Shown here: positions 8,823-39,369 of the stretch, piece after piece
How positions within the stretch are numbered: position 1 is the stretch's first letter
How the letters are laid out: every line of letters starts with the position of its first letter
IMG/VR virus record: IMGVR_UViG_3300030098_006408
Location: 1-39,369 of that record
Length of the DNA: 39,369 nt
Direction: 5' to 3' (one strand)
DNA from: a virus
Notes under the pieces: model-generated
Told to the model about the DNA's origin: nothing
The model's database searches: none
What the model saw: only the letters and a program-made list of their open reading frames with translations
Program-made: the position numbers and the translations under genes

Positions 8823-9377
8823 TCACAATCCCAATGAATCCACTACATCCAAAGCATTATTAGCTGACACGTTCAGGTACAGAGAAGTGTTAGCGACACT
8901 CTGATGCCCTGCCAACTGACGGCATACCTCAATATCCTTTGTCCTCTCGTAGACAATGGATAATTTGGATCTCCGCATACTATGCGTAGAGAATTCCTTG
9001 TGGTCCAATTTGCAAATCATGGCCCACTTTTTTACTAACCTGGAATATTGGATACCCGATAGGTGTTCTCCATCACTTCTACCAGGAAAAAGATAGTTTT
9101 CGGGCCTGAGACCCTCAGACTGTACGAAATCAAGGATAACTTGGTTTGTAAATGGACTCAAGGCCCAAGTAACTTTTCTCCCTGTCTTCTCCATGATCTT
9201 GGTCTCCCGAGTTTTCGGGGCTCCGTTGATGTCAATAACGTCAGAGACCCTTAGGGTCAAGAGATCTGATTTTCTCAGGACACTATCAAACGCTACGGAG
9301 AAGAGGACTAAGTCTCTACCCTGGAGCTTTTCCCTGAGAAGCAAAACGTGTTCGTAGGTAAAAGGTTTCTTTTGCAT
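8823..9377 (-). CDS. Short tyrosine recombinase lacking the N-terminal core-binding domain
   Basis: Recombinase of 184 residues that is essentially only a catalytic domain, the size class of FimB/FimE-type invertases. All catalytic residues are visible: Arg35 (VLRKSDLL), Lys64 (EKTGRKV), His132 and Arg135 (HSMRR), His158 (LAGHQS) and the nucleophile Tyr167 (TSLYLNV). The start at 9377 is set by AGGGG just upstream; a longer in-frame start at 9452 would run back through the preceding gene. It is the second tyrosine recombinase in the window, transcribed opposite to int and with little similarity to it outside the motifs. Its DNA substrate is unknown: it could invert or excise a segment, resolve dimers, or act with int. 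Two GTTTTCGGG nonamers lie within it. Confidence 0.93.
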   Translation of the reverse strand: MQKKPFTYEHVLLLREKLQGRDLVLFSVAFDSVLRKSDLLTLRVSDVIDINGAPKTRETKIMEKTGRKVTWALSPFTNQVILDFVQSEGLRPENYLFPGRSDGEHLSGIQYSRLVKKWAMICKLDHKEFSTHSMRRSKLSIVYERTKDIEVCRQLAGHQSVANTSLYLNVSANNALDVVDSLGL

Positions 9378-9378
9378 T

Positions 9379-9585
9379 TTAGTTCCCCTTTTTGTTGTAT
9401 TTTTCATAAAGGTGATGAGTTTCTTGGAAATAGCACTCTTCACAAACCACAATAGTGTCTATACCCTCATCATATTCCCACCCGTTACGATCATTTAGGG
9501 CTTTGGAGTATTTGAGGGACCAACCTTTCTCTTTGTAGTCCCCCAATTCATCACAAATAAAACATCTAAAAATATTATCATCCAT
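9379..9585 (-). CDS. Small zinc-knuckle protein
   Basis: Protein of 68 residues with paired knuckles CFIC near the N-terminus and CEEC near residue 48, which should coordinate one zinc. I choose the ATG at 9585 because GGGAAG lies five bases before it; a GTG at 9591 is also in frame. Its stop is one base before the start of the short recombinase gene, so the two are probably co-translated. Function unknown. Confidence 0.7.
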   Translation of the reverse strand: MDDNIFRCFICDELGDYKEKGWSLKYSKALNDRNGWEYDEGIDTIVVCEECYFQETHHLYEKYNKKGN

Positions 9586-11808: not shown

Positions 11809-11869
11809 TTTAGTGATCAGCCCTAAGCCCTTAAGAGAAAACCCTTAAGGGCTCCAAGTGATCACTAAA
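11809..11869. repeat. 53-bp nested inverted repeat, copy 2
   Basis: The 53-base core (11814-11866) is identical to copy 1. The outer stem is longer here: TTTAGTGATCA (11809-11819) pairs with TGATCACTAAA (11859-11869), 11 perfect pairs. Copy 1 has AAA/TTT where this copy has TTT/AAA, so the outer bases differ but still pair. The stop codon of the upstream gene lies inside it. Confidence 0.87.
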
Positions 11870-12710
11870 TATTATATCTAATGGCCTCAAGTGATCCGCT
11901 ATTAGGGTCTTGAAAACAATTCCAAACCTTATCCTCAATGATCACTTTTAGATCATTAAAGTTTTCCAAGATTTTTTCAGAATTACGGTAAAGGTCTTTA
12001 CCAATGAAGACATCATCCAGGGTCTCTCGATCAACTCCAATGATGTCCTTATAAAAGGATTGAACAAAATAAAATACTTGATTTGATCCGTTACAAACTG
12101 GGCTCAAGGTTTCGAATTCAAATTCATTAAGTAATTCTTGTTTTATTTGAGGCCAGTTTTCATCAATGTCAACGTAAGGTTCATCATGATCATCATAAGA
12201 CCATTCACATTCATTTAGAGCAAAGATGATGTCTGAGTCTTTAAACTGATTATGAAAGGGTGAAAGAATCTCATCATCATCTATTTTGTTATAGACTTCA
12301 TTTAAACCGATATCAGACACCCAATCATTGAAAGATTCTAATTGCATATTAGAAAAGTGATCTTCATTAAGAATAGGGTAGTCAGTAAGGCTCAATTGAT
12401 CTTGAAGGGCTTGATCTAATACTAAAGAATCAATGGGGTTCAGAATGACAACCTCAAACCATCCACAAGCCCAGTGACCGAAACGATGAATTTGCCAATG
12501 GTCCCCTTCGGGCTCAATGTCCGTTAATCCTTTTATATAGGTCTCAAAGTTTGATTTCTCAATAAGCCCTGAATCCCTATTCAATTGAATAGATGACACT
12601 AACCAATCTCTGTTATCAAAATCGGCCCCCTTTCCTTTTCTATCATATTCCGTTGGTTGGAATTCACCGAAGGTCTGCAGACTGTTTTTGATTTGTTCTA
12701 GATTTTCCAT
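11865..12710 (-). CDS. Highly acidic early protein of unknown function
   Basis: Protein of 281 residues, the first gene after the sigma70-like early promoter. It has about 58 Asp/Glu against about 20 Lys/Arg by my count, so it is strongly negative. Residues 78-84 (GHWACGW) and 110-120 (DYPILNEDHFS) resemble a conserved pattern I recall from uncharacterised phage and plasmid proteins (HW..GW, then DYPvLdEdd.S). AAGGA precedes the ATG. The position matches T7 gene 0.3, whose product Ocr is an acidic DNA mimic that blocks restriction enzymes. An anti-defence or host-takeover role is inference from charge and position only. Confidence 0.8.
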   Translation of the reverse strand: MENLEQIKNSLQTFGEFQPTEYDRKGKGADFDNRDWLVSSIQLNRDSGLIEKSNFETYIKGLTDIEPEGDHWQIHRFGHWACGWFEVVILNPIDSLVLDQALQDQLSLTDYPILNEDHFSNMQLESFNDWVSDIGLNEVYNKIDDDEILSPFHNQFKDSDIIFALNECEWSYDDHDEPYVDIDENWPQIKQELLNEFEFETLSPVCNGSNQVFYFVQSFYKDIIGVDRETLDDVFIGKDLYRNSEKILENFNDLKVIIEDKVWNCFQDPNSGSLEAIRYNI

Positions 12711-12734
12711 ATTAATGATCCTTATTCATTAAAG

Positions 12735-12783: not shown

Positions 12784-12819
12784 GTGATCCTATCTTAGGA
12801 CACTAAGAAACCATGTCAA
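12784..12819 (-). promoter_or_regulatory. Sigma70-like early promoter with overlapping operators
   Basis: On the minus strand, TTGACA (12814-12819) and TAAGAT (12792-12797) are separated by 16 bases, with an AT-rich stretch upstream. The palindrome TCTTAG-N4-CTAAGA (12793-12808) overlaps the -10 box and spacer. A TGATCC unit (GTGATCC, 12784-12790) covers the expected start point. It drives the acidic gene and probably the accessory region. Confidence 0.65.
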
Positions 12820-12876: not shown

Positions 12877-12898
12877 CCTTATACATATATATATAAGG
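12877..12898. repeat. AT-rich inverted repeat
   Basis: CCTTATA (12877-12883) and TATAAGG (12892-12898) around CATATATA. It lies next to the TGATCC array, as an easily melted element might beside iterons. Confidence 0.5.
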
Positions 12899-12930
12899 GA
12901 AAAATTTTGGATTCAGCAGGGTCCGAAGAT

Positions 12931-13086
12931 TGATCCCGAAGTGATCCTGAAGTGATCCAAGGTGATCCCGAAGTGAAACCCTCAATATTATCCCGAAGTG
13001 ATCCCGAAGTGATCCCGAAGTGATCCAAGGTGAAACCCACAATATTATCCCTCAATGATCCCTCAGTGATCCCTCAGTGATCCAAG
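12931..13086. repeat. Phased TGATCC iteron array
   Basis: Ten TGATCC units, mostly within AGTGATCCCGA or AGTGATCCCTC and spaced about 11 bases apart. They are grouped into three higher-order blocks, each ending in AAGGTGAA and the first two followed by a CAATATT segment. Further single TGATCC units lie nearby at about 12785, 12850 and 13288. Every unit contains GATC, the Dam methylation site. The helical spacing suggests a protein bound repeatedly on one DNA face. Confidence 0.9.
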
Positions 13087-13139
13087 GTGAAAACTAAAAA
13101 CAAATTTTTAAAGGGTAGACAAACAAGACAAGATTATCA

Positions 13140-13256
13140 TCATGGTTTGGTTTTACTTGAGATCAGACAAACAGTGAATCCAATGATGAAACCCATCAAA
13201 AAACCTAAGAGAAAATAAAAAACTATAGCATTTTCAAATGAATCAATTGAAATCAT
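13140..13256 (-). CDS. Possible 38-residue membrane peptide
   Basis: A short frame from the ATG at 13256 (MISIDSFENA...) contains one strongly hydrophobic stretch of about 20 residues with Gly and Phe (FLLGFLMGFIIGF) and a basic end (SSKTKP), the shape of a single-span membrane peptide. No ribosome-binding site is visible, so expression is doubtful. Confidence 0.35.
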   Translation of the reverse strand: MISIDSFENAIVFYFLLGFLMGFIIGFTVCLISSKTKP

Positions 13257-13370
13257 TGGTTTTTTTACGATCAAGACTGCTAAGAATGATCCTCAGGGCT
13301 GGAAAGGCCAGGGAAAGGGTCAAGGGGGGAAAGGGATTTCGGGACATTAGCGTTACCCCTTCACATTTTT

Positions 13371-13418
13371 CACCAAAAACCACCAGGACTACACCAAGGT
13401 CACACCAAATCCACACCA
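13371..13418. repeat. Phased CACCA array
   Basis: CACCA occurs at 13371, 13381, 13392, 13403 and 13414, spacing 10, 11, 11 and 11 bases; the last three copies read ACACCAA. Like the TGATCC array it has helical phasing, but the unit differs, implying a different binder. Confidence 0.7.
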
Positions 13419-13483
13419 AAATTTACAGTTGTCACAAAGATTTACAAAATACCTTACGGATTTGACTTGACACTACTATAGGA

Positions 13484-13503
13484 TACTACAGTATACTATA
13501 GTA
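13484..13503. repeat. 20-bp near-palindrome
   Basis: TACTACA-GTATAC-TATAGTA is a palindrome with one mismatched pair. Its first ten bases match the inverted repeat beside int (7185-7194). A TTGACACTACTATAGGA stretch lies just upstream on the plus strand. Confidence 0.5.
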
Positions 13504-13639: not shown

Positions 13640-15328
13640 TTAGTTAAGGATGTGGCTCTGGGGCTTTCCCGTGACCAAACTGACCCCCTCAATAAAATCC
13701 TCAAGCATCTGATCCACCTCTTCCTCTCTTCGTAAACTTTGGGCCTCTTCCTGCTCCACGTTCATTCGGTCCACCCAGTACCTTATAGCCATAGCGAGAC
13801 AATCAAGCCTATCGTCATGTCTAAGAGCCCCTCGGTCTTTGGTGATCCTTGTCATCTGATAAAATAACTGGTAGGCCAGAGCAGCCTCAGGGGGAAGGTG
13901 TTGGGTACTTTGAAAATCATTCACCACAACCTGGGTGTCCACTATGAGCCTATGTTGGTTCATCACGGGCTCTAGGCAATCTATGATCCTTTTTTCCTTT
14001 TGGGTTTGGTGTCTCACCTCTTCTATCCCTACGGGGTAGATTTTCTTAAGGTGAGGCTCAAGAAGAGCCTGGAACATCCCGTCCCCAAAGTTGCTCTCAA
14101 TAAGCACTAGGTTAACCTTATGGTTCTTTGCTTGTTTACAAAGTAGACCCATCACCTCATCACTATAACCCCCTTGGATTCCTCCTTGGGCCACCAAGAA
14201 CAAATTACCCCCAAGCATCTTAACGACACACCAAGAGGTCTCATCCCTACCTCGGCCCGAGGGGTCCACGGCAAGCACTGAGCCTTCATAGGGTATCCAT
14301 TTACCCCCTATGTCAAGGGGACGATACCACTTGTCTCCATGAAGACCCACCATAGGGATCTCATCATTTTGAAGATAGGGAGCCCTTTGAAACACTAGGG
14401 TCTCAGGTGCTGTATCGGTGTTGAGGTCCATGACCATAAGGTCAGAAATCTTGAGAGGATATCGATCCATGTCAGACAAACTGGTGTCCAACATAAACTG
14501 TAGAGCAAACCCAGACTTCCCATAGGAAAGCTCTCGCTCAATGAGGTCCTCTTCAGAAAACCTAAGGGGGTCCGTAGGCTCCCCAGGATTCATTCCAGCC
14601 TTATCAACCATTTCGTTGATAAAGGGGGAGATTCTTCCAAGGTACTTATCCCTTTGGGCCTCAAGTGGAAACCTTGCGGGCCAGATTCTCATTTCGTACC
14701 CCCTGGAGGGTAGGACATCATAAATCGTTTGCTCACACTGGGGAGTCCCCAAAAAGATCACTTGGCCTCCTGGTGACAGCACGGCATCAAATTCCTTGAT
14801 CGACTCCCCAAGCTTTTCCCTCATCATCTGAGTTTGGCTGTTGGAGGGAATCTCTATGTCATCCGCAATGATCAAGTCTGCTCTAGACCCACTAAGCTGT
14901 CCAGTGATCCCTATACTCTTCACCGAGGGTGCGTGGGCTGCTTTGGTTGGTCCCACATCAAAACTAATCTTGGAATCCCTTTGTCCCTCCCGAGGAATCA
15001 GTTCCTCAAGGATGGGCATTTCCTTAATAAGCCTTTGGGTAAAAGTGGAGAAGTCATCAGCCCTCACTTTAGAGGCTGAGACAACCAAACACTTGATGTC
15101 AGGGTTCAATAACAGACGATAACAAACATAGGCCGAGGTGATGTAGGATTTCCCTACTCCCCGAAAAGCCTCCACAATGGCCCTCCTTGGACTTTTTTGG
15201 GGGTCACCTATGTAATCGGCTATGTCGAGTTGAATTGGTGTAGGAGGGGGCAATCTGAGGTGTTTCCAGACCTCTTTAAGAAATACTTGAAATGTTAACC
15301 TGTTAGAAAGGTAGGTTCCTCGGTCCAT
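13640..15328 (-). CDS. terL: Terminase large subunit (T7 gp19 family)
   Basis: Packaging motor of 562 residues (T7 gp19 is 586) that hydrolyses ATP and cuts concatemers. ATPase motifs: Walker A FRGVGKS (about 54-60) and Walker B LIIADDIE (about 153). Nuclease motifs: AVDPSGRGRDE (about 354), NLVLIESNFGDG and HDDRLDCLAMA (about 506), carrying the acidic metal ligands. It overlaps the DUF6378-like gene by 34 bases and is the last gene of the structural operon; the downstream region carries the TGATCC array. Confidence 0.97.
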   Translation of the reverse strand: MDRGTYLSNRLTFQVFLKEVWKHLRLPPPTPIQLDIADYIGDPQKSPRRAIVEAFRGVGKSYITSAYVCYRLLLNPDIKCLVVSASKVRADDFSTFTQRLIKEMPILEELIPREGQRDSKISFDVGPTKAAHAPSVKSIGITGQLSGSRADLIIADDIEIPSNSQTQMMREKLGESIKEFDAVLSPGGQVIFLGTPQCEQTIYDVLPSRGYEMRIWPARFPLEAQRDKYLGRISPFINEMVDKAGMNPGEPTDPLRFSEEDLIERELSYGKSGFALQFMLDTSLSDMDRYPLKISDLMVMDLNTDTAPETLVFQRAPYLQNDEIPMVGLHGDKWYRPLDIGGKWIPYEGSVLAVDPSGRGRDETSWCVVKMLGGNLFLVAQGGIQGGYSDEVMGLLCKQAKNHKVNLVLIESNFGDGMFQALLEPHLKKIYPVGIEEVRHQTQKEKRIIDCLEPVMNQHRLIVDTQVVVNDFQSTQHLPPEAALAYQLFYQMTRITKDRGALRHDDRLDCLAMAIRYWVDRMNVEQEEAQSLRREEEVDQMLEDFIEGVSLVTGKPQSHILN

Positions 15329-15642
15329 TCTTGGCCTTTATCAGCACTTCGTTGATCCCTCTCTTTTTCGATCATGTCTATACAAGCTGCATATCCCATC
15401 ATGTCCACAAGGTTATCCCTGGTGCTACGGTGAATTTGACGGGCTATCTTTAGCCCTATCATCATAAGAGCAACCTTTTCTGGTTCTAATGGTTTGTCTA
15501 ACTCAAGGATCGTGGCCCAAATTTCCCCTATTCTCTTACAATTATCGAGAGGGTGGTCATAGGCCCACTGTCTGTCTCCGTTAACTAACCTTTGAGCTTC
15601 TTCAAATATTGATTCCGTATTTTCTTCCTCAGTGTTCTCCAT
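15295..15642 (-). CDS. DUF6378-like phage protein
   Basis: Protein of 115 residues from the ATG at 15642; upstream in-frame ATGs at 15705 and 15801 would run back over the small terminase gene. The core (NGDRQWAYDHPLDNCKR, then PEKVALMMIGLKIARQ and DNLVDMMGYAACIDMIE) matches the helical family I know as DUF6378, frequent in phages and sometimes compared with MazG-like folds. Function unknown. It sits between small and large terminase and overlaps the latter. Confidence 0.78.
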   Translation of the reverse strand: MENTEEENTESIFEEAQRLVNGDRQWAYDHPLDNCKRIGEIWATILELDKPLEPEKVALMMIGLKIARQIHRSTRDNLVDMMGYAACIDMIEKERDQRSADKGQEWTEEPTFLTG

Positions 15643-15670
15643 GTATCTCAACTTAGGCCATCGGTTATCG

Positions 15671-15922
15671 TTAATTATTGGTGTACTTTGATGGGTGGGG
15701 GACATCTTTGGAGGGGAATTCTTGGACTTGTTCAGGGTCTGGTAATGTTTCCAATAACCTTCTGAGTGGGCTGTCATCCACTGGTAAGCTTTCGATACCA
15801 TTGTCCTTTAGAAATTGTCTGGCAACATTAAGATCCGAAGGGGCTGCTTCCCCTGATTTAATTCTATTAGCCAATTCATCGGCTAGAAGACCGTGTAGGT
15901 CCCTAAGATTAGTACCTGTCAT
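15671..15922 (-). CDS. terS: Terminase small subunit (T7 gp18-like)
   Basis: Protein of 83 residues (T7 gp18 is 89). The pattern LHGLLADELANRIKSGE, then PSDLNVARQFLKDNGI, is typical of small terminases in marine T7-like phages. I chose the ATG at 15922, seven bases after GGAG; a longer start at 15964 overlaps the preceding gene. It would recognise packaging DNA, possibly the repeats below 13.1 kb. Confidence 0.85.
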   Translation of the reverse strand: MTGTNLRDLHGLLADELANRIKSGEAAPSDLNVARQFLKDNGIESLPVDDSPLRRLLETLPDPEQVQEFPSKDVPHPSKYTNN

Positions 15923-16094
15923 AAATACACTCCGAGCATTCTTCGTCAGACAAAACATTGTCATGTTTCATAATTTCTTCCCAAGGTGTTTCAGGGTGAC
16001 CGTAAAATTCGTTTATGGTTGTACCACATGAAATACATTTGCCATGAGATTCATCCATTTGTTTTTCTAAATAATACCTTTTCATCAACCCCAT
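15909..16094 (-). CDS. Small zinc-knuckle protein
   Basis: Protein of 61 residues with CISC near residue 20 and CSEC near the C-terminus, likely one zinc site. It starts just after the endolysin stop and overlaps the small terminase start by 14 bases. Function unknown. Confidence 0.65.
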   Translation of the reverse strand: MGLMKRYYLEKQMDESHGKCISCGTTINEFYGHPETPWEEIMKHDNVLSDEECSECIYDRY

Positions 16095-39268: not shown

Positions 39269-39369
39269 TTAAAACTTAGTAATAAATTTTCCTATTGAGT
39301 TAACAAAAGGCAGTAGAGTTACTGCCATTAATAAATTTACTCCCGAGTGAACCATTGCAATTTGTCTTA
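39269..39369 (-). CDS. C-terminal end of a small hydrophobic protein (cut by right edge)
   Basis: A minus-strand frame runs open from the window edge to a TAA at 39269. Its last 28 residues from an internal Met (39355) are hydrophobic with a basic end (GVNLLMAVTLLPFVNSIGKF), like one membrane span. No ribosome-binding site precedes that Met, so the gene probably begins outside the window. It does not continue the DNA polymerase frame. Confidence 0.4.
   Translation of the reverse strand, partial: RQIAMVHSGVNLLMAVTLLPFVNSIGKFITKF

Follow-up and report, generated by a model that had tools for sequence, protein, structure and literature searches.

The window, that is, the whole stretch of 39,369 nucleotides analysed here, accounts for most of a viral record of 39,629 bases and represents a marine T7-like podovirus, read backwards. 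The families found in it include a single-subunit RNA polymerase, a primase-helicase, a DNA polymerase, portal, capsid and tail proteins, the large (TerL) and small (TerS) terminases and an integrase. The RNA polymerase, the T7-type TerL with TerS and the gene order in one direction assign the phage to the T7-like phages (autographiviruses). As the genes lie on the minus strand, the order on that strand is TerL, approximately 930 bp of non-coding DNA with a repeat array, a sigma-70-type promoter and the early genes, which is also the gene order across the T7 concatemer junction. The features of this part of the genome are as follows:

8823-9452: integrase (family search)
11865..12710, minus strand: first early gene, function not assigned (ORF list and family search)
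12792..12819, minus strand: sigma-70-type early promoter TTGACA-16-TAAGAT (TTGACA kept in the closest relative, L009)
12926..13083, minus strand: SRL-like array of 14 units with core (G)GATCACTNNG, 11-bp phase and three blocks (repeat analysis; same place in L009)
13640..15328, minus strand: large terminase TerL (PHROG 38, E 6e-111)
15671..15964, minus strand: small terminase TerS, T7 gp18 family (PHROG 891, 2e-14; PF11123, 2e-18)

The array adjoins the large terminase, as had been stated from the sequence. The true start of TerS is probably at MTGTNL. The AlphaFold model of this protein (mean pLDDT 69) shows two helices and a short third with no confident PDB match, and for this reason no HTH is claimed. 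The relatives found for the first early gene are distant only (up to 47% identity, over part of the gene). A 168-aa ORF at 15295-15801 overlaps the start of TerL; it is named "phosphofructokinase" by PHROG 474 and DUF6378 by Pfam (1.5e-22), and the PHROG name looks misleading. At the other side of the record, beside an N10 gap at the record end, a fragment of a Na+/Pi-cotransporter (PF02690, E 4e-15) spans 39275-39369 of the window and L007 (record 39383-39629). It is either a phage-carried, host-derived phosphate transporter gene or a chimeric scaffold join.

The original prediction described ten TGATCC units in three blocks at a spacing of about 11 bp, and the word count confirmed it. The word starts at 12931, 12942, 12953, 12963, 12999, 13010, 13021, 13056, 13067 and 13078, and the blocks repeat at a distance of 57 bp. 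In 200 first-order Markov simulations with the dinucleotide make-up of the window, TGATCC/GGATCA reached a maximum of 3 per 156 bp, compared with the 10 observed. Read on the minus (transcribed) strand, the array contains 14 units, namely GGATCACTGAG or GGATCACTTCG and several degenerate forms (e.g., GGATAATATTG and TTTCAC..). The steps between them are 11, 11, 11, 14, 10, 11, 11, 11, 14, 11, 10, 11 and 11 bp, that is, mostly 11 bp with two of 14 and two of 10 bp, a regularity beyond chance, as is expected of an SRL-type array.

Two details of the same description held in part. Further copies within 300 bases exist (12716 and 12785) but carry less weight, the word being common across the whole window (52 vs 24 expected) and these copies being mostly explained otherwise. 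At 12716 the word represents the AAGGATCA Shine-Dalgarno sequence of the first early gene. At 12785, where it overlaps the early promoter start, L009 reads AGGTCAC, and this copy is thus not conserved. The statement that all units contain GATC is true of those defined by TGATCC, and only because the unit had been so defined; GATC is found in 10 of the 14 phased units (10 in 158 bp) and is missing from the other four.

The comparison with L009, whose TerL is 94% identical and which was the sole phage relative found in an exact-pattern scan for the array, indicates what is kept. An AT-rich stretch at 12880-12918 lies beside the array, and direct repeats next to such a TATATA-rich sequence could form an iteron-type replication origin, at which an initiator bound to the repeats would melt the stretch. 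However, L009 lacks the AT-rich stretch, which was therefore rejected as a melting element. Moreover, the phage carries a T7-type replication set (RNA polymerase, primase-helicase, polymerase), and no cognate initiator gene was recognised. An origin of this type is thus quite unlikely.

In order to place the array relative to the genome ends, the non-coding region was compared with those of reference phages. The terminal features are the following:

13364..13417, minus strand: second phased repeat at the SRR position, with GGTG at intervals of 10-11 bp, which extends into the cut signature (10-bp spacing in L009)
13354..13379, minus strand: left terminal (terminase cut) signature TTTTTGGTGAAAAATGTGAAGGGGTA, with the direct terminal repeat (DTR) predicted directly after it (match to reference phages)
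13324..13329, minus strand: C6 tract at a fixed 41 bp from AAAAAT (spacing conserved in the family)
13128..13353, minus strand: predicted DTR of approximately 226 bp, in single copy in the metagenome assembly (left, signature; right, TCTGTT-type boundary and a second island of window/L009 conservation)
13113..13131, minus strand: predicted right DTR boundary TTGTCTTGTTTGTCTACCC (counterpart of A[TC]CTGTT after the DTR in T7, T3, Syn5 and P-SSP7)

In detail, the window has AAAAATGTGAAGGGGTA followed 41 bp on by CCCCCC (13370-13324), and the left signature occurs once in the window against 0 expected. The corresponding 17-mers are AAAAATCTGAGTGACTA in T7, AAAAATCTGAATGGGTA in T3, ..TTTTGTGAAGGGGTA in Syn5 and AAATGTCTGAGGTCATA in P-SSP7, the ends of which were sequenced from virion DNA (PMC3350473). 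In all four phages the first base of the DTR directly follows the 17-mer, and a C run is located 24-26 bp after the DTR start. Since the window has a single copy of the 17-mer, the left end is predicted at 13353. In SP6 the left cut motif is absent.

More generally, the motif TTTT-N3-7-AAAAATGTGARGGGGTA, with variation in a few letters, was found in 41 non-redundant loci, identified via TerL or by pattern. In nearly all of them it is followed by a hypervariable stretch and then by CCCCC(C) 41-44 bp on; the spacing from AAAAAT to the C tract is 41-44 bp in the family and 41-43 bp in phages with a recorded DTR. With looser letters, bacterial genome assemblies also contain the motif at 23 of 41 TerL-flanking loci, compared with no occurrence in 164 kb of control sequence. 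The DTR of the cultured relative HTVC134P should accordingly start directly after AAAAATGCGAAAGGGTA. Within the phage collection, the signature stretch of the window has a single significant match, which stops 14 bp short of the ProddE record end, and the annotated terminal repeat of ProddE starts at base 1. According to the annotations of LUZ100 and ProddE, their DTRs start 12 and 8 bp, respectively, past the point used by T7, T3, Syn5 and P-SSP7, which leaves an uncertainty of about 12 bp on the first base of the DTR. These two annotations (OP329100 for LUZ100 and MZ666938 for ProddE) may be slightly off. Metagenome contigs usually lose or bury the terminal repeat, and the signature would allow a near-base prediction of the ends of uncultured T7-like phages from such contigs; earlier descriptions of it may exist outside the open-access literature.

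To the right of the DTR, ATCTGTT is found in T7, T3 and Syn5, ACCTGTT in P-SSP7 and TCTGTT in SP6. The respective words are TCTTGTTTGTC in the window and TCTGTTTGTC in L009, in a stretch which is 91% identical between the two, while the interior of the DTR is only 58% identical. The DTR is therefore predicted from approximately 13353 to 13128, that is, 226 bp, and its right end could be placed as late as about 13118. Both cut positions are inferred by homology. The predicted length compares with 160 bp in T7, 231 in T3, 237 in Syn5, 206 in P-SSP7, 174 in SP6 and 244 in LUZ100.

A short palindromic tract rich in ACTATAG / CTGTAG is located downstream of TerL at 13474-13503, at the place of the T7 phiOR, and is possibly a set of tandem phage promoters. 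In CRP-227, TerL is likewise followed by tandem repeats of a similar kind, ACTATAGG.

The distance from the predicted DTR to the start of the array is 45 bp, and that from the predicted genome end is less than 300 bp. The proposed parallel with the T7 SRL/SRR repeats was borne out, the array being placed in the SRL position between the predicted DTR and the first host promoter. In T7, CCTAAAG words in 13-bp steps occupy 175-338, just right of the 160-bp DTR, with the A1 promoter further right at 498. Both arrays thus consist of short direct repeats that immediately follow the left DTR on its right and lie upstream of a host early promoter, with a length of about 160 bp and 12-14 copies. They differ in the unit (CCTAAAG in T7 vs GGATCACTNNG in the window) and in the period (13 vs 11 bp). 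SP6 likewise has a phased array (CCTTAGT, 12 bp, p=0.001) just right of its 174-bp DTR, with another unit and no left cut signature. The T7 SRL parallel thus holds, and a role in packaging or concatemer maturation is the likeliest.

The proximity of the early promoter, approximately 110 bp off, and the presence of the integrase would also suit an operator array, on which a phage repressor bound to phased repeats controls the early promoter in a lysogeny decision; a MarR-type control has been proposed for integrase-bearing T7-like phages (PMC10134795). However, the lytic T7 and SP6 bear such arrays at the same place, and none of the early ORFs scanned was recognised as repressor-like. In addition, the distance that is kept is the one from the array start to the predicted cut (270 bp in the window, 273 bp in L009) and not the one from the array end to the promoter (106 and 60 bp, respectively). 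Such a function is unlikely.

The survey of arrays included the 38 loci with enough sequence, which had been picked by the signature and not by their arrays. At +200..+420 from the motif, an array of significant periodicity was found in 20 of the 38, against 2/30 and 1/40 of control regions, with E-values and shuffles that account only partly for the kinship among loci. The lag was 11 in 14 of these loci, 12 in three, and 10, 20 and 21 in one each, and the mean autocorrelation over the signature loci peaks at lags 11 and 22. The unit sequences differ widely, for instance CACTGAGGACA, CACTCAYAGGA, CCTACCTAYTG, CAACCTAGAGAT, CCTAAAGCAAA and CCAACATCAAG. The arrays of several relatives are built of CCTAAAG/CCTAGAG, the former being the T7 SRL word, which links the family to the T7 SRL. 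At this place the 11-bp periodicity is family-wide, and the unit sequence drifts freely.

About half of the relatives have no significant array of this spacing at +200..+420, nor do Syn5 and P-SSP7 at that place, which means that the array is not universally required. The signal at the left end of T3 is weak, and in LUZ100 a 12-bp CCTCAAG array lies to the opposite side of the DTR. On the SRR side, the region -300..-80 from the signature is periodic in the window (p=0.01), and 11 of the 41 loci are periodic with mixed lags; over 23 loci, units common to the SRR- and SRL-position arrays in inverted orientation gave no overall signal.

These absences, together with the fast turnover of the units and copy numbers from a few to more than 10 among relatives, would be expected if the repeats had no function of their own and arose as a by-product, through slippage or recombination, where non-coding DNA close to the genome end evolves fast. 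Slippage leaves the preference for 10-12 bp, with its peak at 11, unexplained, as well as the occurrence of unrelated unit sequences at the same place and the rarity of arrays in control regions. We regard this explanation as rather improbable.

The survey also bears on the suggestion of a Dam-methylation-controlled packaging site like the P1 pac. P1 is a headful packager with TGATC hexamers in a Dam-dependent site inside a gene. The window resembles it in having several short GATC-containing repeats near packaging genes, ten GATC within 158 bp. In contrast to P1, the genome is predicted to have a DTR, the array lies between genes and its GATC is not conserved. In L009, where GCATCAC replaces GGATCAC in 4 of the 11 units, GATC is present in six and missing from five, while TCAC is kept in all 11. 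Outside this pair, GATC occurs in the unit junction of CAACCTAGAGAT in L087, but it is not regular in T7 or in most other relatives' arrays. Furthermore, the genome is not GATC-poor (179 vs 145 expected). A Dam-controlled site is highly improbable, and thus of the earlier interpretation the part which rests on the position beside TerL, in the SRL place and near the predicted end, stands, but that of Dam methylation and a P1-type pac was not borne out.

We therefore consider it fairly probable that the array is an SRL-type phased repeat of a T7-like phage which serves terminase cutting and packaging. In the concatemer, the array would be located just right of the single DTR copy, flanked by the right cut site and the early promoter. 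The phage RNA polymerase would traverse TerL and the DTR and pause at the right DTR boundary. In T7, the ATCTGTT at the concatemer junction is a class II pause signal for the RNA polymerase. At the T7 junction, the paused polymerase-lysozyme complex interacts with gp18 and gp19, leading to maturation and the start of packaging (PMC3276506). The terminase complex would assemble at the right DTR boundary and cut at about 13353 and 13128, producing the two genome ends. The array may act as a helically phased platform, which would keep packaging proteins (TerS/TerL, and perhaps the phage RNA polymerase in its paused state) on a single face of the DNA. Alternatively within the same mechanism, it may be easily bent DNA for packaging proteins to wrap. 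In either case spacing would weigh more than sequence.

A dependence of the unit sequence on that of TerS was contradicted by three loci (L083, L089 and L113) with identical TerS cores and different array units, which makes it unlikely that TerS reads the unit sequence. This agrees with reports that gp18 of T3 and T7 are interchangeable and that specificity comes from gp19 and near-end sequences (PMC3276506); according to work cited there, T3/T7 hybrids assign packaging specificity to gp19 and to sequence no more than 5% of the genome away from the ends. It also agrees with the TerS of SF6, which is reported to select bent DNA instead of repeat sequence and did not prefer the pac repeats of SPP1 (PMC4737164). 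The SPP1/SF6 pac region is similar to the window in its repeats near the cut and in a recognition that may rest on DNA bending and not on sequence (PMC4737164), but these are headful phages with a few box repeats and not a long 11-bp phased array.

Tentatively, and with some doubt, the information of the terminal array may be its helical phase (one-turn spacing or bendability) instead of its sequence, near a signature common to T7, cyanophages, pelagiphages and T7-like prophages of many bacteria. The period of the T7 array, 13 bp, is not one helical turn and speaks against a helically phased platform. Given a comparative set that retains phase and position and not the letters, the purpose of SRL and SRR and the target of the T7 terminase at the concatemer junction become testable by respacing the SRL of T7.

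Arrays of NATCACTNNGG-like units with an 11-bp spacing were also found in two unrelated contigs (L013 near 5927 and L014 near 5478). The one in L014 adjoins an apparent ParA gene, and both are possibly partition or operator sites, a sign that arrays with an 11-bp phase have come about in several kinds of system.
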